Of a DNA stretch of 64,000 nucleotides, positions 45,386-64,000 are shown in pieces. The translations under genes were made by a program, and so were the position numbers. Below the pieces are notes generated by a model. That model was not told the DNA's origin and did no database searches. It worked only from the letters and a program-made list of their open reading frames with translations. Position 1 is the stretch's first letter, and each line of letters opens with the position of its first letter. Origin of the DNA: Lumbricus terrestris (Eukaryota; Annelida; Clitellata; Crassiclitellata; Lumbricidae); the NCBI GenBank assembly GCA_949752735.1, contig OX457036.1, positions 12,912,016 to 12,976,015 of the forward strand. Direction: 5' to 3'.

Positions 45386-48300
45386 ATGTTCGCTCACGGT
45401 GCAAAAGACGACGAAATTCTACCTACTCCTTCTGCCGAAACGGTGAATTCGTAATTCGTACTATTTTAAGTTAAGCCATAAGTAGAAAATAACCCCTATC
45501 ACATTGCGTAGGATATTGAAATAATGTATTCAGGCCATGGTAGCCTATGCCATATTGTTCATAATAATATGGCTTCTGCCTGTTAGCTAATTAATTATTA
45601 TTGGCATTCGCGTTAAAGCTAATTCTATTTTAATTTGTCCAGACAGCCGACCTTTGTAGTTCTATAGGCTTGTGTGCTCATTCGACCTTGGCACTGTGTA
45701 GAGATGACATATTGTCATTTTCTTGTCTAGACACGAAGTCACATGTCCTAATAAACTCTGTCATAATCTCATCACTGATAGCTTAGTCTCTAAGGAGTTG
45801 ACCGTGCAATGGACAATATTATCGTCCCACCAACAGTTCCTATAGATTATCATCGACTCGAAAAGTACAACTACGACTGCACTACGACTCGGTTTCATGA
45901 ACGGTCCATAGTCGTAATTTACTCTGACTGCATTGCATAAATTGTATGTACAGTGCTTGGACATATTACTGCACATCTCACAATTAGACCATAGATTTCT
46001 CTCCGATGCTATCGATAATTTAATTCCGGAAGTATTTCAGTTGGATACGACCTACTCCATTAACCACCAACGTTCATCTGGTGGTACATAGGCAATGATT
46101 TTCCAAACTTTTATATTATTTGTCGGCCAGTTATAAGGCACATTGCTTAGAGGGGGGCATAATAATATTCTATTCGAAATTCATTATGCAGTGAATGTCT
46201 CCCTGTTTCCCCTGTATGTTTTGTCTGTATTCGTTCTCTGTGCTTGTATACATTAATTATGCTTTATTTAAATAATACTAGAACTTTGCGTGTTGGTTGT
46301 TAGCAAGTCTCACGCATAAATAAAAGTATTTAAAATTGGAATGGGGAAAATTGGATGGTTGAAATGGGATGGGTGGAATGGGATGGGTGAAATGGGATGG
46401 GTGAAATGGGATGGGTGAAATTGGATGGGTGAAATGGGATGGGTGAAATGGGATGGGTGAAATGGGATGGGTGAAATTGGACAGGTGAAATGGGATGGGT
46501 GAAATGGGATGGGTGAAATGGGATGGGTGAAATGGGATGGGTGAAATGGGATGGATGAAATGGGATGGGTGAAATGGGATGGGTGAAATGGGATGGGTGA
46601 AATGGGATGGGTGAAATGGGATGGGTGAAATGGGATGGGTGAAATGGGATGGGTGAAATGGGGTGGGTGAAATGGGGTGGGTGAAATGGGATGGGTGAAA
46701 TGGGATGGGTGAAATGGGATGGGTGAAATGGGATGGGTGAAATGGGATGGGTGAAATGGGATGGGTGAAATTAGATGGGTGAAATTAGATGGGTGAAATT
46801 AGATGGGTGAAATTCAATGGGTGAAATTCAATGGGTGAAATTGGAGCAGGGAAAATGGGAAAATAGAAAAATGGATAGCGATTAAAAATTAGAAAATAAA
46901 TAGCAACTAAAAATTAGAAAATGGATTGCAATTTAAAAATTAGAACATAGATAGTAATTGTATGGTGACTGTAATGCCACTATACAATGTACACTGTATT
47001 GTATGCATGTTGACGTTGTATTAACGAAAAACAGGGAGCCAGGATCTGCTTAAAATTATTTAATAATATAACGATAAATGCAATGCGACCTCTATGTGTC
47101 CGATAACTTCTATAAAACTTTGTCGAAATCATTGCCTTAAGAAGACCAGATGAACGTTGTTGGTTAATGGAGTAGGACAGCCCCATCTGAAATAAATTTC
47201 GGAATTCAACAGTGGATCGCATCGCAGATCGATCCAAGGTCTCATTGTGCGATGATCAGTAATGTGACTAAGTACTGTACATGTAATAAAAGCATGCAGT
47301 CAGTAAATATAATTACGACTATTGGCCGTCCATGAGATTGATTTTTGTAGTCCAGTCCTAATTGTAGTTTCGAGTCGATGATAATGCATGGACTCTTGTT
47401 GGGACGATATTGTCCATTGCACGGTGAAGTCTTTAGAGACTGAGCTACCCGTCAACGAGACTATGATGGAGTTTGGCATTAGGACAAGCGACTGCATGCA
47501 CGTCTTGACAAGAGAATGATGAGATTTCACCACTGCACGATGCCAAGGTCGAGTGCTGATGCAAGTCTGCAGAAGTAAAACAGTAGGTTGTCTGGGTGAA
47601 TAGAAATCGAATTAATTAACGCCAATGCAGGATAGGTAGGGTTTTATTAAGTAGTGTAGTTCCTTGCATATTAATTAGGGTGCTTTCTGTATTTCGCCTT
47701 TCTGATCTAAATATTTGTATCCACTATGTAGCGACTTTTGTAGCTGGTATTTCTTAATATAATTATAATGCAGATTGCACTTTAGTTCAGCTATAGAGGC
47801 TTCTGCAGCCTGTAAGAACCATAAAATAAGAACCATAAAATAGCAATATGAATAAAAAAATATAAAAGTAAAATAGCATATAAGATGTAATGCATCAAGT
47901 AAGAAGATTTTACCTTTGGGTTCTTGGGTACTGCCTAAGTTCTTGTTCTTTCAGATCTCGGAGGAGCTGATCGCGGATTGGGGGACGGTGGAAGATGCGT
48001 GGAATCTCCAACAACGATCGCCTGGATCCGTGGTCATTTCGGCATCACGACGTCTGATGGGTCGTGGACAAAAGTGGGTGATGTATATCGAGCCTCTTGT
48101 TCTTTCAGGTTTTCTTCTAGTTGCCTGGAACAAAAAGCGTCTGGAGCACGACCACTGGATCCCAAAGACGGTGACAGACTGGGATATGGTGGAAAATAGG
48201 TCGAGTATCCGACGCCCAACAATCCTCGACATTGTAGGTTGCGAGGTCGGATGGGTCATGGTTGGTTAGTGCCCTCTTGTGATCGCCATCTTGGTAGGGA

Positions 48301-51300
48301 TGGTGACCATACAAGGGGCGATAGGATTAGCCACCAATTTACAATGTTCTTGTCCTTTCAGTTTCTATTGTAGTGATTCAGAGCATGGAGCAGCAAAAGT
48401 CTGAAGCACACAGGACCTACCGATCATCTGACTGGCCTCACCCCCCTCCCCAGGCCTCACCCTCACCCCAGGCCTCACCCCAGGCCACAGCCCACCCCAG
48501 GCCTCACCCTCCCCCCCAGGCCTCACCCTCCCTCCAGTCCATATGCACGTCCAACCACTAAAAATTACAAAAATTAAAACAAAAGTAAAAATGTTAAAAT
48601 GTAAAAAAAGTAAATGAGCAAAAACCAAAAATGTGAAAAGTAAAATGTTAAATTCAATATAGCGATAACTAAAATCTAAAAAAAAATGTTTAAATGTACA
48701 AAACAAAAATCGTCCGTTCGTTTGCACTCTGACCCCCATTGTTTTTTCCATTCGTTTTCCGTTCTCGTTTTTTCAGGTTCTTTCATTGTAAACAATGATT
48801 GCATTTTAATTGTTTCTGATTCTTTTATTGCTTACATGTATTGTGTTCTTGTTTTATGTTCTTTTACTGTTAATGTAACGGTGTTCTTGTTTTTTAGGTT
48901 CCTTTATTTTTAACGTAACTGTTCTTGTTGATTTAGATTCTTTTATTGTAAATAATGATTGCATTCTTATTGTTTCTGATTCTTTTATTGCTTACATGTA
49001 TTGTGTTTTTTTTAGGTAGGTTCTTTTAATGTTAATGTAACAGTGCTCTTACTCTTCTTTTTTTAGGTTCCTTTACTTTTAACGTAACTGTGTTATCGTT
49101 AATTTAGATTATTTTATTGTAAATAATGATTGCATTCTAATTATTTAGATTCTTTTATTGCTTACATGTATTGTGGGTTTTTTAAGTTCTTTTACTGTTA
49201 ATGTAACAGTGCTCTTCCTCTTCTTTTTTTAGGTTCCTTTACTTTTAACGTAACTGTGTTCTCGTTGATTTAGATTATTTTATTGTAAATAATGATTGCA
49301 TTCTAATTATTCTGATTCTTTTATTGCTTACATGTATTGTGGGTTTTTTTAGGTTCTTTTACTGTTAATGTAACAGTGCTCTTGCTCTTCTTTTTTTAGG
49401 TTCCTTTACTTTTAACGTAACTGTGTTCTCGTTGATTTAGATTATTTTATTGTAAATAATGATTGCATTCTAATTATTCTGATTCTTTTATTGCTTACAT
49501 GTATTGTGGTTTTTTTTAGGTTCTTTTACTGTTAATGTAACAGTGCTCTTCTTTTTTTAGGTTCCTTTACTTTTAACGTAACTGTGTTCTCGTTGATTTA
49601 GATTATTTTATTGTAAATAATGATTGCATTCTAATTATTCGGATTCTTTTATTGCTTACATGTATTGTGGTTTTTTTTAGGTTCTTTTACTGTTAATGTA
49701 ACAGTGCTGTTCCTCTTCTTTTTTTTAGGTTCCTTTACTTTTAACGTAACTGTGTTCTCGTTGATTTAGATTATTTTATTGTAAATAATGATTGCATTCT
49801 AATTATTCTGATTCTTTTATTGCTTACATGTATTGTGGGTTTTTTTAGGTTCTTTTACTGTTAATGTAACAGTGCTCTTTTTCTTTTTTTAGGTTCCTTT
49901 ACTTTTAACGTAACTGTGTTCTTGCTGATTTAGATTATTTAATTGTAAACAATGATTTCATTCTAATTGTTTCTGATTCTTTTATTGCTTACATGTATTG
50001 TGTTGTTTTAGTTTCTTTTACTGTTAATGTAACAGTGCTCTTCCTCTTCTTTTTTAGGTTCCTTTACTTTTAACGTAACTGTGTTCTCGTTGATTTCGAT
50101 TATTTTATTGTAAATAATGATTGCATTCTAATTGTTTCTGATTCTTTTATTGTTAACGTTCATTGCATTCTTATTGTTTCTTATATTGTTTCTGATTCTT
50201 TTTGTTGTTAGGGTAATTGTGTTCTTGTTGTTTCACGTTCTTTTGCTAACTTCGAATGTGTTTTTCTATTGTAGGTAACTCCGCCACAGGGAACTGCAAA
50301 TCTGGAGGGATTTGCAGTTCCCTGCGCCGGTCCTAAGCCCGGATAAAGGAGGAAGGTTTACAATGTTCTTGTCCTTTCAGTTTCTATTGTAGTGATTCAG
50401 AGCATGGAGCAGCAAAAGTCTGAAGCACACAGGACCTGCCGATCATCTGACTGGCCTCACCCCCCTCCCCAGGCCTCACCCTCACCCCAGGCCTCCCCCC
50501 AGGCCACAGCCCACCCCAGGCCTCACCCTCCCCCCAGTCCATATGCACGTCCAACCACTAAAAATTAAAAAAATTAAAACAAAAGTAAAAATGTTAAAAT
50601 GTAAAAAAAAGTAAATGAGCAAAAACCAAAAATGTGAAAAGTAAAATGTTAAATTCAATATAGTGATAACTAAAATCTAAAAAAAATTTTAAATGTACAA
50701 AACAGGTTCTTTCATTGTAAACAATGATTGCATTTTAATTGTTTCTGATTCTTTTATTGCAGGTGGGTGTCGATCCCTGGCAGTAAAACAAAGACGACTG
50801 AAGTTCGATGCCAAACAGAAACGATGTCGGGATACGCCAGCTCGGATGACGCATGGACAAACGAGGTCCGCAAAACCAGTCGTGCAGTTGGGATTGGATC
50901 GGGACCTGCTACCGAAAGAAAGTCGAGACCTGCTGGAGCTTGGAATGGTCGCACTCTCTGGTCGGCGGGAAACTGGAGTTGCTGGAGATGTCAAGATGCT
51001 CATTCAGCGGCCAGCCACGATCTTCTGGATCCTTCTGCCCTCTTGGAATCCTCACAGGTAGCTGAGATCAGCCGGATGACATGTTAATTTGCTAATTGTC
51101 TGTTAATCGTATTTGAATTTTTGATGGATGTGATTCATGATCAACTGATTACTTGATATTGTTAATTAATTAATTAATATTATTAATTAATTATTAATTA
51201 TATAATTAATTAATTAATATTATTTATTAATTAGCATTAATTACTCTATCCTTTGGCCTATTACCAAACATACCAGGCTCGCTCGTGCATTCATTCTTCG

Positions 51301-52604: not shown

Positions 52605-54506
52605 AAAAGATGGTGCTAAAGCTTCATAAACCAAGGCCGAGGAAAAGACGGCGGCGGCTCTTCAAATGCCGAGGCGGTGGTTTATATGACGAGGCCGAGA
52701 AAATGAGGGTGGCAGCGGCTCATATCCCGATACTGAGAAAACAAGGGCGGCATCGTTTAAATGCCAAGCCCGAGAAAATGAGGGCGGCGGCGGTTTATAT
52801 GCCGAGGCCGAGAAAATGAGGGTGGTGTTCCATATGCCGAAACCGAGAAAAGAGGGCACCGTTTTATATGCCCAAACCGAGAAAATGAGGGCGGCGGCAT
52901 TTCCTATGCCGAAACCGAGAAAATGAAGGCGGTGGCGGTTTCTGCGCCGAAACCGAGAAAATGAGGGCGGCTGCGTTTCATATGCCGAAACCGAGAAAAT
53001 GAGGGCGGCGGCGTTTCATATGCCGAGGCCGAGGCAATGAAGGCGGTGGCGGTTTATATGCCGAAGCTGAGAAAAAGAGGGCGGCGGCATTTCATGTGCC
53101 GAGGCCGAGAAAATGAAGGCGGCGGCGGTATATATGCCAAAGCCGAGAAAATGAGAGTGGTGTGTCCATATGCCGAAACTGAGAAAATGAGGGCGGCGGC
53201 GTTTCCTATGCCGAAACCGAAAAAATGAGGGCGGCTGAGTTTCATATGCCGAAACCGAAAAAATGAGGGCGGCTGAGTTTCATATGCCGAAACCGAGAAA
53301 ATGAGGGCGGCGGCGTTTCATTAGCCGAAACCGAGAAATGAGGGCGGCTGCGTTTCATATGCCGAAACCGAGAAAATGAGGGCGGCGGGGTTTCATATGC
53401 CGAGGCCGAGACAACGAAGGCGGTGGCGTTTCCTATGCCGAAACCGAAAAAATGAACGCGGTGGCGGTTTATGCGCCTAAACCGAGAGAATGAGAGCGTT
53501 GGGTTTCATATGCCGAAACCGAGAAAATGAGGGCGGCGGCGTTTCATAAGCCGAAACCGAGAAAATGAGGGCGGCGGCGTTTCATATGCCGAAACCGAGA
53601 AAATGAGGGCGGCGGCGTTTCATATGCCGAAACCGAGAAAATGAAGGCGGCGGCGGTAGGCCTATATATGCCGAAACCGAGAAAATGAGGGCGGCGGCGT
53701 TTCATATGCCGAAACCGAGAAAATGAGGGCGGCGGCGGTATATATGCCGAAACCGAGAAAATGAGGGCGGCGGCGGTATATATGCCGAAACCGAGAAAAT
53801 GAGGGCGGCGGCGGTATATATGCCGAAACCGAGAAAATGAGGGCGGCGGCGGTATATATGCCGAAACCGAGAAAATGAGGGCGGCGGCGTTTCATATGCC
53901 GAAACCGAGAAAATGAAGGCGGCGGCGGTAGGCCTATATATGCCGAAACCGAGAAAATGAGGGCGGCGGCGTTTCATATGCCGAAACCGAGAAAATGAGG
54001 GCGGCGGCGTTTCCTATGCCGAAACCGAAAAAATTAACGCGGTGGCGGTTTATGCGCCTAAACCGAGAGAATGAGAGCGTTGGGTTTCATATGCCGAAAC
54101 CGAGAAAATGAGGGCGGCGGCGTTTCATAAGCCGAAACCGAGAAAATGAGGGCGGCGGCGTTTCATATGCCGAAACCGAGAAAATGAGGGCGGCGGCGTT
54201 TCATATGCCGAAACCGAGAAAATGAAGGCGGCGGCGGTAGGCCTATATATGCCGAAACCGAGAAAATGAGGGCGGCGGCGTTTCATATGCCGAAACCGAG
54301 AAAATGAGGGCGGCGGCGTTTCCTATGCCGAAACCGAAAAAATTAACGCGGTGGCGGTTTATGCGCCTAAACCGAGAGAATGAGAGCGTTGGGTTTCATA
54401 TGCCGAAACCGAGAAAATGAGGGCGGCGGCGTTTCATAAGCCGAAACCGAGAAAATGAGGGCGGCGGCGTTTCATATGCCGAAACCGAGAAAATGAGGGC
54501 GGCGGC
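52605..54506 (+). repeat. GC-rich 38-bp minisatellite with higher-order units
   Basis: About 50 copies of a unit containing GCCGAAACCGAGAAAATGAG followed by GGCGGCGGCG and TTTCATAT. Variant units recur in blocks: the set with AACGCGGTGGCGGTTTATGC, GAGAGCGTTGGG and CATAAGCC appears near 53455, 54035 and 54343, the last two ~308 bp apart. The left third is more diverged. Open frames on both strands are repeat by-products. Confidence 0.92.
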
Positions 54507-57500
54507 AGTAGTTGTTAGAGTACAGGAGTTGGCACAAGTAGGCCAAGGTTCATTGATATAGAGTACAGGAGCTAGCACAAGTAGGCCAAGTTCACTGATA
54601 TAGTATTCTGGCACAATTTGCACTCATTGACCATATTACGTCACTGATTTAGTATCGTAGCCAATGGCAAGCAGCCAAATTGTCACGCGACATGCCAATC
54701 AATTATTTGTCTGTATGTTTGTATGTGTGCCTGACTGTATGCGTGGCTGTGTCTTTGTATGTGTGTGCGACTGTATCTGTATGTGTGTGCTACTGTATGA
54801 CTGTGCATGTCTTTGTATGTCTGCATATTCTGCCCCATACAGACACCTATCCAAAATGGAATCGTCCAAAGGCTGCGGTGGCGGCCAGCCCCCTGTCCAA
54901 TCAAAATCCTCATCCAAAAAAATGGAATCGTCCAAAGGCTGGTGTTGCGCGCGGCTATGGGCTAACCCTCTGACCAATCAGAAGCTGCGGCGGGCAGCCA
55001 CGGACTAGCATGGGCTAACCCTTGTGCGGCGGGCAGCCACGGACTAACAAGGGCTAACACCCATATCCAATAAAAATTGACAGCTGGCAGCTGCATCCAT
55101 TGGCACATGATGACAGATCCAATTTGAATTGATGCCACATGTGTCGGTAACTCCTATCCAATAAAAATCTTCACAAGCAATTCTGCCGCCGCAGGCACCG
55201 ACATGTCAATCCAATTATTGTCCGTGTCATGGGAAGCCTTATGCGCTGGCATCGGAAACCGTTGTTGTCACATGTGGTTTAAATATTAACAGTCTTTGAA
55301 ACGCTCTCTCAACGGTATATTGGTGATTCTATCTCAACCCCCCCCAGGCAATAGTCACATGTGGTTTTAATATTAGCACTCTTTGAAATGCTCTCTGATG
55401 TATTACTGTATATCAACGATAAATAGTGGTGGCAGTATTTGAATATTATAATTAAACCATTGTATGTGGCATTGAAAATTCCTTTAATTTAAGTATTTGT
55501 ATATACGCATGTACTGGTTCACATACATGAGAAATTTATTTTAAGTGAAAATTCTTAAATTTTCCAAAACAACTTTATTGTAAGTAGTTACATAACCACA
55601 TGTTTTGGCTCACATGCATAAAAAATTTATCGTGAAAATTCTTAAATTTTTCAAAAGAGCTTTACTGTAAGTAGTTGCATATCCATATGTTTTGGTTCAC
55701 ATACATGAAAAATCTTGCACATGCAATCGATTTTTCAAAAGTCCTTTAATTTAAGTAGTTGTATATATGCACGCATTGGATCACATACATAAAAATTTAT
55801 CTTAAGTGAAAATTCTTAAATTTTTCAAAAGAGATTTATTGTAAGTAGTTGCAATTTCTACAAATCCATACATGCAGACTTACTTACTCACCAAATGATA
55901 ACACTTCAACAGATTTACACATGTGCATGCAAGCACATATTTCCAATTTCTTCATTCATTCAGTTCTTAATACTTGCATCTTCCAAAATCTCACGCATGC
56001 AATTTCTACAATTCCATACCAACTTACTTACTTATTCACAAAATTTCAGCAATTCATCAGATTTACACATGCACATACATGGTCATATTTCTCATTTCTT
56101 CAAACCGTCAGTTCTTAATACTTGCGTCTTTCAAATTCTCAACCATGCAAATTCCACAATTTCATACCAACTTACTTACTTATTCACAAAATGTGAGCAC
56201 TTCATCAGCTTTACACACGCTCATACATGGTCATATTTCTCATTTCTTCAAACCGTCAGTTCTTAATACTTGCGTCTTTCAAATTCTCAACCATGCAAAT
56301 TCCACAATTCCATGCCAACTTACTTACTTATTCACAAAATGTCAGCAATTCGTCAGCTTTACACGTGCGCATACATGGTCATATTTCTCATTTCTTCATT
56401 CCTCCATTTCTTAATACTTGCATCTTTCAAATTCTCAACCATGTAATTTCTACAATTCCATACCAACTTACTTACTTATTCACAAAATTTCAGCAATTCA
56501 TCAGCTTTACACGCGCACATACATGGTCATATTTCCATTTCTTCAACCCTCCAATTCTTAATACTTGTATCTTTCAAATTCTCAACCATGTAATTTCTAC
56601 AATTTCATACCAACTTACTTACTTATTCACAAAATTTCAGCACTTCATCAGCTTTACATGTGCACGTACATGGTCATATTTCCATTTCTTCAATCCTCCA
56701 ATTCTTAATACGTGCATCTTTCAAATTCTCAACCATGTAATTTCTACAATTTCATACCAAATTACTTACTTATTCACAAAATTTCAGCACTTCAACAGCT
56801 TTACATGTGCACGTACATGGTCATATTTCCATTTCTTCAATCCTCCAATTCTTAATACTTGCATCTTTCAAATTCTCAACCATGCAAATTCGACAATTTC
56901 ACACCAACTTACTTACTTATTCACAAAAGTTCATCAATTCAACAACTTTACACATGCACATGCATTATCATATTTCTCATTTCTTCAAACCGACAGTTCT
57001 TAATACTTGCATCTTTCAAATTCTCAACCGTGCAAAGTCCACAATTTCATACCAACTTACTTACTTATTCACAAAATTTCATCAATTCAACAGCTTTACG
57101 TATACACTATCCTGCACATATCTGTCATTTCTTCAAACCATCAGTTCTTCATATTGACATCTTTCACCATGTCAACGTTAGAAACTCTACAATTTCTCAC
57201 ATGCTTACTTACTTATTCACAAAAATGTCTACATGCCAAAGTTTTACACAAGTACAAGCATGCAATTGTTATTCATTTCTGCACTTCTTCAGTTCTTAAT
57301 ACTTGCATCTTTCAACATCTCAAACATGCAAATTCTGAAATTCCATGCATACTTACTTACTTACTCACAAAATTTTTGCAATTCATTTGCTTTTCAATTG
57401 TACAAGCGTGCGCATATTTCTCATCTCTTGATTCTTACGATTTTCAACATCTCAAGCTCATCATTCTACAATTTCTCAGCTACTTACTTACTTACTTGCA

Positions 57501-59192
57501 TATGTTGTGCACACCAACAGCTTTACACACGTATATTCCTACTCTTATTCTCAAATCTTCATTCCTTCAATTCATACTTTGGACATGTTTCAACTTCTAA
57601 ATCGCATGCGGCTACAATTCTGCACACACTTGCTTACTCACTAGTATAAGTTTTACAACCAATCAGCTTTACATGTACAATTATTTCTCATTTCCCATTT
57701 CTTCAATACTTCAACTCTTACTTCTTACATGTTTCATTCCCACAACATAACAATTCTGCTATTCCACATATACTTAGCTGCATACTTACTTACTTACTTG
57801 ATGCACAGAACTCTTCAATTGCAAATTCAAGCGTTTGGCTCTCATTTGTTCAATTCTTCAACTATAACTCTTAATTCTTGCACGTTTCAACTCTACGACT
57901 TAGCAATTGCTCAGTTACTTACTTCTTGAAGTATCAAAAAAATAAATAAATAAATTGAAGAGTAAGAATCATCATTTTTCTTCGCAAAGTTTCTAAGTCC
58001 ATACATTTTCTGACACCGAAAGTTTCGAAGTTCCAAAATTTTCTCCATGTTCATAAAATTTTCTTCACAAATATTCTATGTTCAATCATTTTCTGTGACG
58101 AAAAAATTTCTAAGATCGAAAATTTCTTACTTGTTGACAAAATTTTCTTCGCACGTGATGTATGAGGAGAATAAGGAAGTTGAAGAAGAGAACAGATATG
58201 AGGAGAATGTGAAGGATGAAGATGAGAAGAATATGGTCTTAGACGTATGAATTCAAAGTTTCTAATTCTGACATGAAAAGTTTCTAAGTCCCAAAATTTC
58301 TTCCATTTCCACAAATTTTTCTTCGCACGAAGATGAGTATGAGGAGGCAGAGGAAGAAGATGATGATATGGGACTTAGAGGTATGAATTATTGCGATACA
58401 TAGACGAATTAACGATATGCAAGGCGAATATTTTGGAATGCACATGTGCAAAGCAATGTTTTTGTGAATTTTCTACATTTAAAATGTCAAATGTTGCAGG
58501 AATAGTGTGACACATGATGCTCTCATTTGTTTGCATTACTTGTTTGCATTACTTCTTGAAGTATCAAAAAATTGAAGAGTAGTTACTTTACATTACTTTG
58601 TATGGAATCGCAAATTTCAGAGGCAACAGATGGTAAAGTTTGCAACTCTTAGTCATAAAACTTTTAGTTTGTCAACATATGTAAGTTTAGCTAAGTCAGC
58701 ACTTTATGCAAGAGTATCGATTTGCTTTAGCAAAGTCATATAGGATTGTGAGTTCTCACCTGATGGTACGAGTGCATGAAATTATGCTGCGCAAGTATGT
58801 TAGATACATGACTCATTCATTTTCGTTTGGTGAGGCGTATGCAATTTTAGCTGAGTCATCAATTTTGCAAAAAGCATGCGTTTGAGTGAATAAAATACCA
58901 ATGTTGGCTGGTTCAGTAATGCGAACTCTACACCATTTTAAGCTAAATGCATGTCAGTGCAATTGTACGAGTTGCCACTTTAGCAGAAATTCGTGTGCGC
59001 AACAATTGCAATTATAACTCCCAACAGTTTTTTCACCAACTAAAATCACGATCATACTTAGGAATTCAATGTTGTACGACTTGGTGGCACGCGAGTCTGA
59101 TGCGGTGGACACACCTGCTCCGGCGGCGGCGGAGGTGTTTGCGATCTGATCCGTTCCGTCTTTGACGCGCGCAAGTCAGTCGATCGTGCGCA
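54507..59192 (+). repeat. Left arm of the giant palindrome
   Basis: In order: a tandemly doubled ~45-bp subterminal unit (54515-54605); a GT-rich TGTATGTG tract (54707-54830); short GC-rich direct repeats (54850-55050); about five AT-rich ~87-bp units (55480-55850); ~148-bp tandem units (about 55860-57800); then unique AT-rich sequence to the centre. All open frames inside are mirrored in the other arm and repetitive. Confidence 0.85.
55860..57800 (+). repeat. Tandem array of ~148-bp units in the left arm
   Basis: The phrase CTTACTTACTTATTCACAAA recurs near 56023, 56171, 56319, 56467, 56614, 56762, 56908, 57056 and 57204, spaced 146-148 bp; about 13 units in all, the later ones more diverged. 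Each unit also holds an AATACTTGCATCTTTCAAA-like segment. Where the unit is 147 bp the frame stays open, giving a repetitive 258-codon frame (56227-57003) with a 49-residue period. I regard this as a by-product of the repeat. Confidence 0.85.
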
Positions 59193-59230
59193 GCTTCAAC
59201 TCATACTCCACACTTCATACATTACATTAT
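59193..59230. other. Central spacer of the palindrome
   Basis: The 38 bases not matched between arms. Directly outside, the arms carry GC-rich GCGCGC and GATCGTGCGCA on the left with complements on the right, so the centre would form a hairpin loop of about 38 nt. Confidence 0.75.
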
Positions 59231-62200
59231 TGCGCACGATCGGCTGACTTGCGCGCGTCAAAGACGGAACGGATCTAGATCGCAAACACCGCCGCCGCCG
59301 CCGGAACAGGTGTGTCCACCGCATCAGACTCGCGTGCCACCAAGTCGTACAACATTGAATTCCTAAGTATGATCGTGATTTTAGTTGGTGAAAAAACTGT
59401 TGGGAGTTATAATTGCAATTGTTGCGCACACGAATTTCTGCTAAAGTGGCAACTCGTACAATTGCACTGACATGCATTTAGCTTAAAATGGTGTAGAGTT
59501 CGCATTACTGAACCAGCCAACATTGGTATTTTATTCACTCAAACGCATGCTTTTTGCAAAATTGATGACTCAGCTAAAATTGCATACGCCTCACCAAACG
59601 AAAATGAATGAGTCATGTATCTAACATACTTGCGCAGCATAATTTCATGCACTCGTACCATCAGGTGAGAACTCACAATCCTATATGACTTTGCTAAAGC
59701 AAATCGATACTCTTGCATAAAGTGCTGACTTAGCTAAACTTACATATGTTGACAAACTAAAAGTTTTATGACTAAGAGTTGCAAACTTTACCATCTGTTG
59801 CCTCTGAAATTTGCGATTCCATACAAAGTAATGTAAAGTAACTACTCTTCAATTTTTTGATACTTCAAGAAGTAATGCAAACAAGTAATGCAAACAAATG
59901 AGAGCATCATGTGTCACACTATTCCTGCAACATTTGACATTTTAAATGTAGAAAATTCACAAAAACATTGCTTTGCACATGTGCATTCCAAAATATTCGC
60001 CTTGCATATCGTTAATTCGTCTATGTATCGCAATAATTCATACCTCTAAGTCCCATATCATCATCTTCTTCCTCTGCCTCCTCATACTCATCTTCGTGCG
60101 AAGAAAAATTTGTGGAAATGGAAGAAATTTTGGGACTTAGAAACTTTTCATGTCAGAATTAGAAACTTTGAATTCATACGTCTAAGACCATATTCTTCTC
60201 ATCTTCATCCTTCACATTCTCCTCATATCTGTTCTCTTCTTCAACTTCCTTATTCTCCTCATACATCACGTGCGAAGAAAATTTTGTCAACAAGTAAGAA
60301 ATTTTCGATCTTAGAAATTTTTTCGTCACAGAAAATGATTGAACATAGAATATTTGTGAAGAAAATTTTATGAACATGGAGAAAATTTTGGAACTTCGAA
60401 ACTTTCGGTGTCAGAAAATGTATGGACTTAGAAACTTTGCGAAGAAAAATGATGATTCTTACTCTTCAATTTATTTATTTATTTTTTTGATACTTCAAGA
60501 AGTAAGTAACTGAGCAATTGCTAAGTCGTAGAGTTGAAACGTGCAAGAATTAAGAGTTATAGTTGAAGAATTGAACAAATGAGAGCCAAACGCTTGAATT
60601 TGCAATTGAAGAGTTCTTTGCATCAAGTAAGTAAGTAAGTATGCAGCTAAGTATATGTGGAATAGCAGAATTGTTATGTTGTGGGAATGAAACATGTAAG
60701 AAGTAAGAGTTGAAGTATTGAAGAAATGGGAAATGAGAAATAATTGTACATGTAAAGCTGATTGGTTGTAAAACTTATACTAGTGAGTAAGCAAGTGTGT
60801 GCAGAATTGTAGCCGCATGCGATTTAGAAGTTGAAACATGTCCAAAGTATGAATTGAAGGAATGAAGATTTGAGAATAAGAGTAGGAATATACGTGTGTA
60901 AAGCTGTTGGTGTGCACAACATATGCAAGTAAGTAAGTAAGTAGCTGAGAAATTGTAGAATGATGAGCTTGAGATGTTGAAAATCGTAAGAATCAAGAGA
61001 TGAGAAATATGCGCACGCTTGTACAATTGAAAAGCAAATGAATTGCAAAAATTTTGTGAGTAAGTAAGTAAGTATGCATGGAATTTCAGAATTTGCATGT
61101 TTGAGATGTTGAACGATGCAAGTATTAAGAACTGAAGAAGTGCAGAAATGAATAACAATTGCATGCTTGTACTTGTGTAAAACTTTGGCATGTAGACATT
61201 TTTGTGAATAAGTAAGTAAGCATGTGAGAAATTGTAGAGTTTCTAACGTTGACATGGTGAAAGATGTCAATATGAAGAACTGATGGTTTGAAGAAATGAC
61301 AGATATGTGCAGGATAGTGTATATGTAAAGCTGTTGAATTGATGAAATTTTGTGAATAAGTAAGTAAGTTGGTATGAAATTGTGGACTTTGCACGGTTGA
61401 GAATTTGAAAGATGCAAGTATTAAGAACTGTCGGTTTGAAGAAATGAGAAATATGATAATGCATGTGCATGTGTAAAGTTGTTGAATTGATGAACTTTTG
61501 TGAATAAGTAAGTAAGTTGGTGTGAAATTGTCGAATTTGCATGGTTGAGAATTTGAAAGATGCAAGTATTAAGAATTGGAGGATTGAAGAAATGGAAATA
61601 TGACCATGTACGTGCACATGTAAAGCTGTTGAAGTGCTGAAATTTTGTGAATAAGTAAGTAATTTGGTATGAAATTGTAGAAATTACATGGTTGAGAATT
61701 TGAAAGATGCACGTATTAAGAATTGGAGGATTGAAGAAATGGAAATATGACCATGTACGTGCACATGTAAAGCTGATGAAGTGCTGAAATTTTGTGAATA
61801 AGTAAGTAAGTTGGTATGAAATTGTAGAAATTACATGGTTGAGAATTTGAAAGATACAAGTATTAAGAATTGGAGGGTTGAAGAAATGGAAATATGACCA
61901 TGTATGTGCGCGTGTAAAGCTGATGAATTGCTGAAATTTTGTGAATAAGTAAGTAAGTTGGTATGGAATTGTAGAAATTACATGGTTGAGAATTTGAAAG
62001 ATGCAAGTATTAAGAAATGGAGGAATGAAGAAATGAGAAATATGACCATGTATGCGCACGTGTAAAGCTGACGAATTGCTGACAATTTGTGAATAAGTAA
62101 GTAAGTTGGCATGGAATTGTGGAATTTGCATGGTTGAGAATTTGAAAGACGCAAGTATTAAGAACTGACGGTTTGAAGAAATGAGAAATATGACCATGTA

Positions 62201-63918
62201 TGAGCGTGTGTAAAGCTGATGAAGTGCTCACATTTTGTGAATAAGTAAGTAAGTTGGTATGAAATTGTGGAATTTGCATGGTTGAGAATTTGAAAGACGC
62301 AAGTATTAAGAACTGACGGTTTGAAGAAATGAGAAATATGACCATGTATGTGCATGTGTAAATCTGATGAATTGCTGAAATTTTGTGAATAAGTAAGTAA
62401 GTTGGTATGGAATTGTAGAAATTGCATGCGTGAGATTTTGGAAGATGCAAGTATTAAGAACTGAATGAATGAAGAAATTGGAAATATGTGCTTGCATGCA
62501 CATGTGTAAATCTGTTGAAGTGTTATCATTTGGTGAGTAAGTAAGTCTGCATGTATGGATTTGTAGAAAATGCAACTACTTACAATAAATCTCTTTTGAA
62601 AAATTTAAGAATTTTCACTTAAGATAAATTTTTATGTATGTGATCCAATGCGTGCATATATACAACTACTTAAATTAAAGGACTTTTGAAAAATCGATTG
62701 CATGTGCAAGATTTTTCATGTATGTGAACCAAAACATATGGATATGCAACTACTTACAATAAAGCTCTTTTGAAAAATTTAAGAATTTTCACGATAAATT
62801 TTTTATGCATGTGAGCCAAAACATGTGGTTATGTAACTACTTACAATAAAGTTGTTTTGGAAAATTTAAGAATTTTCACTTAAGATAAATTTCTCATGTA
62901 TGTGAACCAGTACATGCGTATATACAAATACTTAAATTAAAGGAATTTTCAATGCCACATACAATGGTTTAATTATAATATTCAAATACTGCCACCACTA
63001 TTTATCGTTGATATACAGTAATACATCAGAGAGCATTTCAAAGAGTGCTAATATTAAAACCACATGTGACTATTGCCTGGGGGGGGTTGAGATAGAATCA
63101 CCAATATACCGTTGAGAGAGCGTTTCAAAGACTGTTAATATTTAAACCACATGTGACAACAACGGTTTCCGATGCCAGCGCATAAGGCTTCCCATGACAC
63201 GGACAATAATTGGATTGACATGTCGGTGCCTGCGGCGGCAGAATTGCTTGTGAAGATTTTTATTGGATAGGAGTTACCGACACATGTGGCATCAATTCAA
63301 ATTGGATCTGTCATCATGTGCCAATGGATGCAGCTGCCAGCTGTCAATTTTTATTGGATATGGGTGTTAGCCCTTGTTAGTCCGTGGCTGCCCGCCGCAC
63401 AAGGGTTAGCCCATGCTAGTCCGTGGCTGCCCGCCGCAGCTTCTGATTGGTCAGAGGGTTAGCCCATGGCCGCGCGCAACACCAGCCTTTGGACGATTCC
63501 ATTTTTTTTGGATGAGGATTTTGATTGGACAGGGGGCTGGCCGCCACCGCAGCCTTTGGACGATTCCATTTTGGATAGGTGTCTGTATGGGGCAGAATAT
63601 GCAGACATACAAAGACATGCACAGTCATACAGTAGCACACACATACAGATACAGTCGCACACACATACAAAGACACAGCCACGCATACAGTCAGGCACAC
63701 ATACAAACATACAGACAAATAATTGATTGGCATGTCGCGTGACAATTTGGCTGCTTGCCATTGGCTACGATACTAAATCAGTGACGTAATATGGTCAATG
63801 AGTGCAAATTGTGCCAGAATACTATATCAGTGAACTTGGCCTACTTGTGCTAGCTCCTGTACTCTATATCAATGAACCTTGGCCTACTTGTGCCAACTCC
63901 TGTACTCTAACAACTACT
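59231..63918 (-). repeat. Right arm of the giant palindrome
   Basis: Reverse complement of 54507-59192 (paired coordinates sum to 118423-118425). Scattered single-base substitutions change a few codons of the mirrored frames, for example V to I and F to V in the 197-codon frame, showing two real, slightly diverged copies rather than one copied string. Confidence 0.85.
60620..62565 (-). repeat. Tandem array of ~148-bp units in the right arm
   Basis: Mirror image of the left-arm array, with the same unit number and order. The mirrored 258-codon frame lies at 61421-62197. Confidence 0.85.
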
Positions 63919-64000
63919 GGCGGCGTTTCATATGCCGAAACCGAGAAAATGAGGGCGGCGGCGTTTCCTATGCCGAAACCGAAAAAATTAACGCGGTGGC
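63919..64000 (+). repeat. Minisatellite resumes to the right of the palindrome
   Basis: Two units of the same 38-bp repeat in the same orientation as 52605-54506, including the AACGCGGTGGC variant at the window edge. Confidence 0.92.

Follow-up and report, generated by a model that had tools for sequence, protein, structure and literature searches.

The 64,000-nucleotide stretch of Lumbricus terrestris DNA considered here (the window) carries a 9.4-kb, almost perfect palindrome. That this palindrome is a mobile element that entered a pre-existing array is well supported at the level of sequence, since a minisatellite flanks it on both sides in direct orientation, a short duplication brackets it, and an empty site can be restored. 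We favour, with some reserve, the explanation that a non-autonomous fold-back element inserted here once, and that it most likely descends from, and was moved by, the Maverick/Polinton family of giant, virus-like transposons. The element is essentially two long inverted terminal repeats with almost no middle. The following features define its junctions with the array.

52673-54506, plus strand: 38-bp minisatellite, left flank, 48.2 copies by Tandem Repeats Finder with a 309-bp higher-order period; the insertion target.
63919-64000, plus strand: 38-bp minisatellite, right flank, in the same orientation as the left flank and beginning right at the element end.
54501-54506 (GGCGGC, 6-bp reading) or 54502-54505 (GCGG, 4-bp reading), no strand: left target-site duplication.
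63919-63924 (GGCGGC, 6-bp reading) or 63920-63923 (GCGG, 4-bp reading), no strand: right target-site duplication.

Self-BLAST aligns the right flank (63919-64000) directly to 53045-53126 at 81.7% identity over 82 bp, and other copies in the array match it too. In an empty site built by script, with position 54506 joined to 63925, 104 of 110 bases spanning the join are identical to the array at positions 53938 and 54247. Removing the element and one copy of the target duplication restores the array sequence. Read by eye against the 309-bp higher-order pattern, two monomers seem to be absent across the insertion point, perhaps as ordinary array variation.

The length of the duplication can be read in two ways. 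Sites of the form GAGGG(CGG)nCGTTTC, searched with n from 0 to 5, occur 17 times in the array, and all 17 have n=2, which yields a 6-bp duplication, GGCGGC, for an element at 54507-63918. A looser site pattern (31 matches at n=0 and 25 at n=1) was set aside because it can match within longer CGG runs. In the 4-bp reading, GCGG is duplicated, the ends become CAGTAGT...ACTACTG, and C54506 and G63919 fall inside the element, with an identical empty site. The strict palindrome bears on this choice, as it includes exactly that one further pair, C54506 with G63919. Both readings agree equally well with the sequence, and the element measures 9412 bp under the 6-bp reading or 9414 bp under the 4-bp reading.

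The palindrome itself is made up of three parts.

54507-59192, plus strand: left arm, 4686 bp, from self-BLAST and base-by-base comparison.
59193-59230, no strand: spacer (hairpin loop), 38 bp.
59231-63918, minus strand: right arm, 4688 bp, an inverted copy of the left arm with an identical set of repeat arrays.

Self-BLAST of the window returns an inverted self-match at 54500-63925 with 99.385% identity over 9430 columns, the spacer being counted in. Base-by-base alignment puts the identity of the arms at 99.72%: over 4688 columns there are 13 differences, of which 11 are substitutions and two are 1-base gaps. The original prediction had placed a palindrome at 54507-63918 with arms of about 4.69 kb and a 38-bp spacer, and these values prove correct. 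Its estimate of more than 99% identity, its mention of arm-to-arm differences and its near-perfect palindrome are likewise borne out. Folding of the central 225 bases gives z = -26.6 against 200 shuffles, so the palindrome is not attributable to chance. The substitution divergence of 0.0024 places the last agreement of the arms about 0.2-0.6 million years ago if 2-5e-9 substitutions per site and year are assumed, a range not drawn from a database.

Long palindromes with tiny spacers are known from fold-back reads, which speaks for an assembly artefact, either such a read or an inverted-repeat misassembly. A fold-back would give a mirrored flank, however, and here the minisatellite resumes in direct orientation after a short duplication, which makes that origin unlikely. 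The 13 differences between the arms also count against an artefact of either kind, and we regard it as quite improbable. An assembly fold-back as the main reading was set aside on the direct flanks and the short target duplication. A longer unique middle may nevertheless have collapsed in the assembly.

The high arm identity would also suit a palindrome that arose in the chromosome at this very site through inverted duplication, as by replication template switching, and whose arms have since been kept alike by gene conversion between them. Four of the 13 differences fall within 59118-59180, adjoining the spacer (scan p 0.0055 from 50,000 simulations, a post hoc test), as might happen if conversion or repair were less faithful at the hairpin tip; the cluster would reflect either such poorer fidelity or chance. 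Differences are absent between 57806 and 59118. An origin in place leaves the target duplication, the direct flanks and the inverted end motif unexplained, however, and the left arm has no BLAST match (E 1e-3) in positions 1-52600 of the window. We consider this origin very improbable, and the reading as an inserted fold-back element is retained. Each arm of that element has a zoned anatomy, given here for the left arm.

54507-55481, plus strand: outer zone, 975 bp, GC 0.449.
54516-54603, plus strand: subterminal tandem duplication with a 43-bp period (Tandem Repeats Finder).
55482-55853, plus strand: 87-bp tandem repeats, which hold three copies of AGTAGTTG.
55850-57429, plus strand: 148-bp tandem repeats, about 10.7 copies, strand-biased (G 0.07, C 0.26).
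58501-59192, plus strand: inner zone, CpG observed/expected 1.05 against 0.66 in positions 1-52600.

A decayed zone lies between the 148-bp repeats and the inner zone in each arm, and the outer zone is possibly the remnant of a terminal repeat of ordinary length. The overall structure is that of a fold-back: very long inverted terminal repeats with internal tandem repeats, and a short middle. Six 148-bp units with clean anchors show a mean identity of 99.9% across the arms (n=6), while within the left arm the same six units average 86% (15 pairs, range 78-95%). This difference indicates that the arrays of the two arms have had no long separate evolution. The palindrome may have arisen as one unit not long before it inserted; alternatively, its arms may be re-copied from each other at each replication, and hairpin replication would achieve such re-copying without an additional process. 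The original prediction offered recent formation or ongoing gene conversion; recent formation or homogenisation fits the data, and gene conversion in place is not needed, because replication as a unit before insertion can explain the arm identity. It was also right about the palindrome, its identity and its tiny spacer, but did not see the likeness to a transposed element whose arms hold tandem repeats and whose termini are Maverick-like.

Other repeats occur elsewhere in the window. A second and more diverged inverted repeat lies at 45604-46146 / 47080-47628 (arms of about 545 bp, 74% identity), with a 14-bp minisatellite at 46337-46845 between its arms; it is possibly a decayed fold-back or terminal-repeat element. 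Direct repeats at 48338-48705 / 50357-50704, 92% identical, flank a 167-bp tandem array at 48761-50152, and the region 48338-50704 may hold one copy of a repeat-bearing unit that was tandemly duplicated.

No gene is recognised in the arms. Ten arm ORFs have no Pfam match at the curated cut-off, the best values below it being E 0.029, 0.2 and 0.34; one of the ten is the left arm's longest ORF, of 268 aa, which lies within the 148-bp repeats. The Maverick genes sought were the protein-primed polymerase, integrase, capsid proteins, ATPase and protease. In a Pfam scan of 150 window ORFs at E up to 0.05, none of the 24 families returned is one of these, nor do the Maverick families appear among the Pfam matches of the ten arm ORFs at E up to 1; of the 39 left-arm ORFs with at least 45 aa, the scan of 150 took in 23. 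The element would therefore be at most a non-autonomous derivative and not a Maverick proper, and this absence from the scanned ORFs counts against the Maverick assignment. Weak matches in the pooled 150 ORFs, whose source ORFs are not assigned, include EI24 (0.00015) and DUF7534 (0.00041), among others. The same set contains domains of SPEF2, with SPEF2_D5 in three ORFs and SPEF2_C in two, and on the minus strand the ORF at 3143-3580 hits the PDB entry for sperm flagellar protein 2 (9ijj, residues 1422-1541, E 3.4e-21). These matches mark the DNA as eukaryotic, most likely animal. This ORF and further ones up to about 42500, a limit judged by eye from the ORF list, are exons of a SPEF2 gene with its C-terminal part at low coordinates.

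No relative was found among viral contigs, which were scanned exactly for three patterns, or among phages and plasmids, against which the left arm was run in a distant BLAST; these results say little because animal DNA is hardly expected in such collections. Over the window, Rfam had no match at gathering scores and a tRNA scan came back empty, and a taxonomy look-up had no entry under the name Polinton. In the open-licence literature, searched by titles and abstract openings, no non-autonomous or palindromic Maverick appears among the matches listed.

The Maverick assignment draws on the ends of the element, which read AGTAGTTGTTAG...CTAACAACTACT and carry the following motifs.

54507-54512, plus strand: terminal motif AGTAGT, (AGT)2.
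63913-63918, plus strand: terminal motif ACTACT, (ACT)2.

A repeated end motif of the Maverick/Polinton kind is thus present, one base inside the end under the 4-bp reading. According to the end-motif survey in PMC8097293, which covers vertebrates and may not apply to this host, (AGT)2//(ACT)2 is the commonest end motif of vertebrate Mavericks, other types such as (AG)3//(CT)3 exist, and 6-bp duplications are among the features of intact copies. The bare hexamers are common in the window (16 AGTAGT and 23 ACTACT), so only their position at the boundary carries weight. For one fixed boundary and one motif, (AGT)2 would occur there by chance once in 4096 cases, and a few times more often once the figure takes in the further motifs on record and a boundary that may lie one base away. 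The assignment uses two short sequence features in one copy, of which one, the duplication length, is ambiguous. The terminal octamer AGTAGTTG occurs eight times in the window (both strands), always within the element: once at each terminus and, in each arm, three times in the 87-bp repeats, oriented like the near terminus. These internal copies amount in effect to one event, since the 87-bp repeats form one tandem family, and they are treated as a lead only. In Galileo, internal repeats are described as bearing extra transposase sites (PMC4079207).

If the element is of Maverick origin, its palindromic form could have arisen through replication. In adenoviruses and tectiviruses, according to PMC8097293, a repeated end motif lets protein-primed replication jump back, and the same would be expected in Mavericks. 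From what is known of the family, the (AGT)2 ends would be the sites where a protein-primed Maverick polymerase starts by jumping back, and the 6-bp duplication would be the work of a Maverick integrase. A displaced single strand might anneal to itself and be copied back into a palindrome, which would give a self-complementary genome with an identical origin sequence at both ends. In later rounds of hairpin replication both arms would be copied from one strand, leaving identical tandem arrays. Taken further, this route leads to a more speculative proposal, to which we give limited credence: a gene-less, self-complementary Maverick satellite, a linear replicon whose single strand would form one hairpin of 4.7 kb, with the protein-priming origin at the sole duplex end, and which would depend on Maverick enzymes acting in trans for both replication and integration. 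If so, Mavericks would have gene-less dependants, as viruses do.

An element that is palindromic throughout and has Maverick ends points to a possible further way in which fold-back inverted repeats become so long and stay so alike, namely protein-primed strand displacement followed by snap-back copying. If true, this would be a fold-back element with a replicative origin, unlike those explained by recombination between terminal repeats.

The ends and the duplication also bear on another reading, in which the element is a fold-back transposon of another or an unknown superfamily (Mutator-type, Galileo-like P-type, or a superfamily with 4-bp duplications) and its Maverick-like ends are due to chance. 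The fold-backs compared here are linked to Mutator- and P-type transposases in PMC4079207 and PMC4168063, and the first of these sources describes Mutator as including most fold-backs. Outer, tandem-repeat and inner zones around a short middle resemble both Tetris (PMC4079207) and some Galileo copies (PMC4168063), and CAGTAGT ends with a 4-bp duplication are an equally valid reading. Against this, a duplication of 6 or 4 bp does not fit the 8-10 bp reported for Tetris or the 7-8 bp reported for Galileo in these sources, and this reading has to accept (AGT)2 exactly at the boundary as a coincidence. We judge such an origin possible but doubtful, and keep the Maverick-derived fold-back as the preferred explanation.

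Among known fold-backs, Tetris of Drosophila virilis is apparently non-autonomous, like the present element, and in its long inverted repeats tandem repeats of about 220 bp are accompanied by a flanking and an inner domain (PMC4079207). Its authors suggest that it belongs to Mutator. Tetris differs in its duplication, which is longer than the 6 or 4 bp seen here, in inverted repeats of up to 1735 bp and in a middle domain of variable size, as the same report gives them. Galileo, of the P superfamily, shares fold-back-like inverted repeats, and in three D. willistoni copies these are lengthened through tandem repeats, the insertion of elements or the uptake of non-repeat sequence (PMC4168063). 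Its duplications have the consensus GTATTAC in D. willistoni according to that paper, and GGCGGC or GCGG is not of this GTANTAC-like, 7-8 bp kind.

Outside transposons, the closest parallel would be a viral one. Self-complementary or copy-back defective genomes of linear-DNA viruses have one end duplicated in inverted orientation and can snap back to a hairpin. The satellite proposed above, if real, would be their counterpart among virus-like transposons, an analogy only, as those genomes are free molecules and the element here is an integrated chromosomal copy.

Compared with Maverick/Polinton elements (polintoviruses) as PMC8097293 describes them, the element is unlike in having no recognised gene and in being palindromic over nearly its whole length. 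At 9.4 kb it is shorter than the intact vertebrate copies reported there (12.7-24.6 kb), and its 4.69-kb arms exceed their terminal repeats of 46-1447 bp, which speaks against the assignment. It resembles them in its inverted terminal repeats, in its (AGT)2//(ACT)2 ends and, under one of the two valid boundary readings, in its 6-bp duplication.
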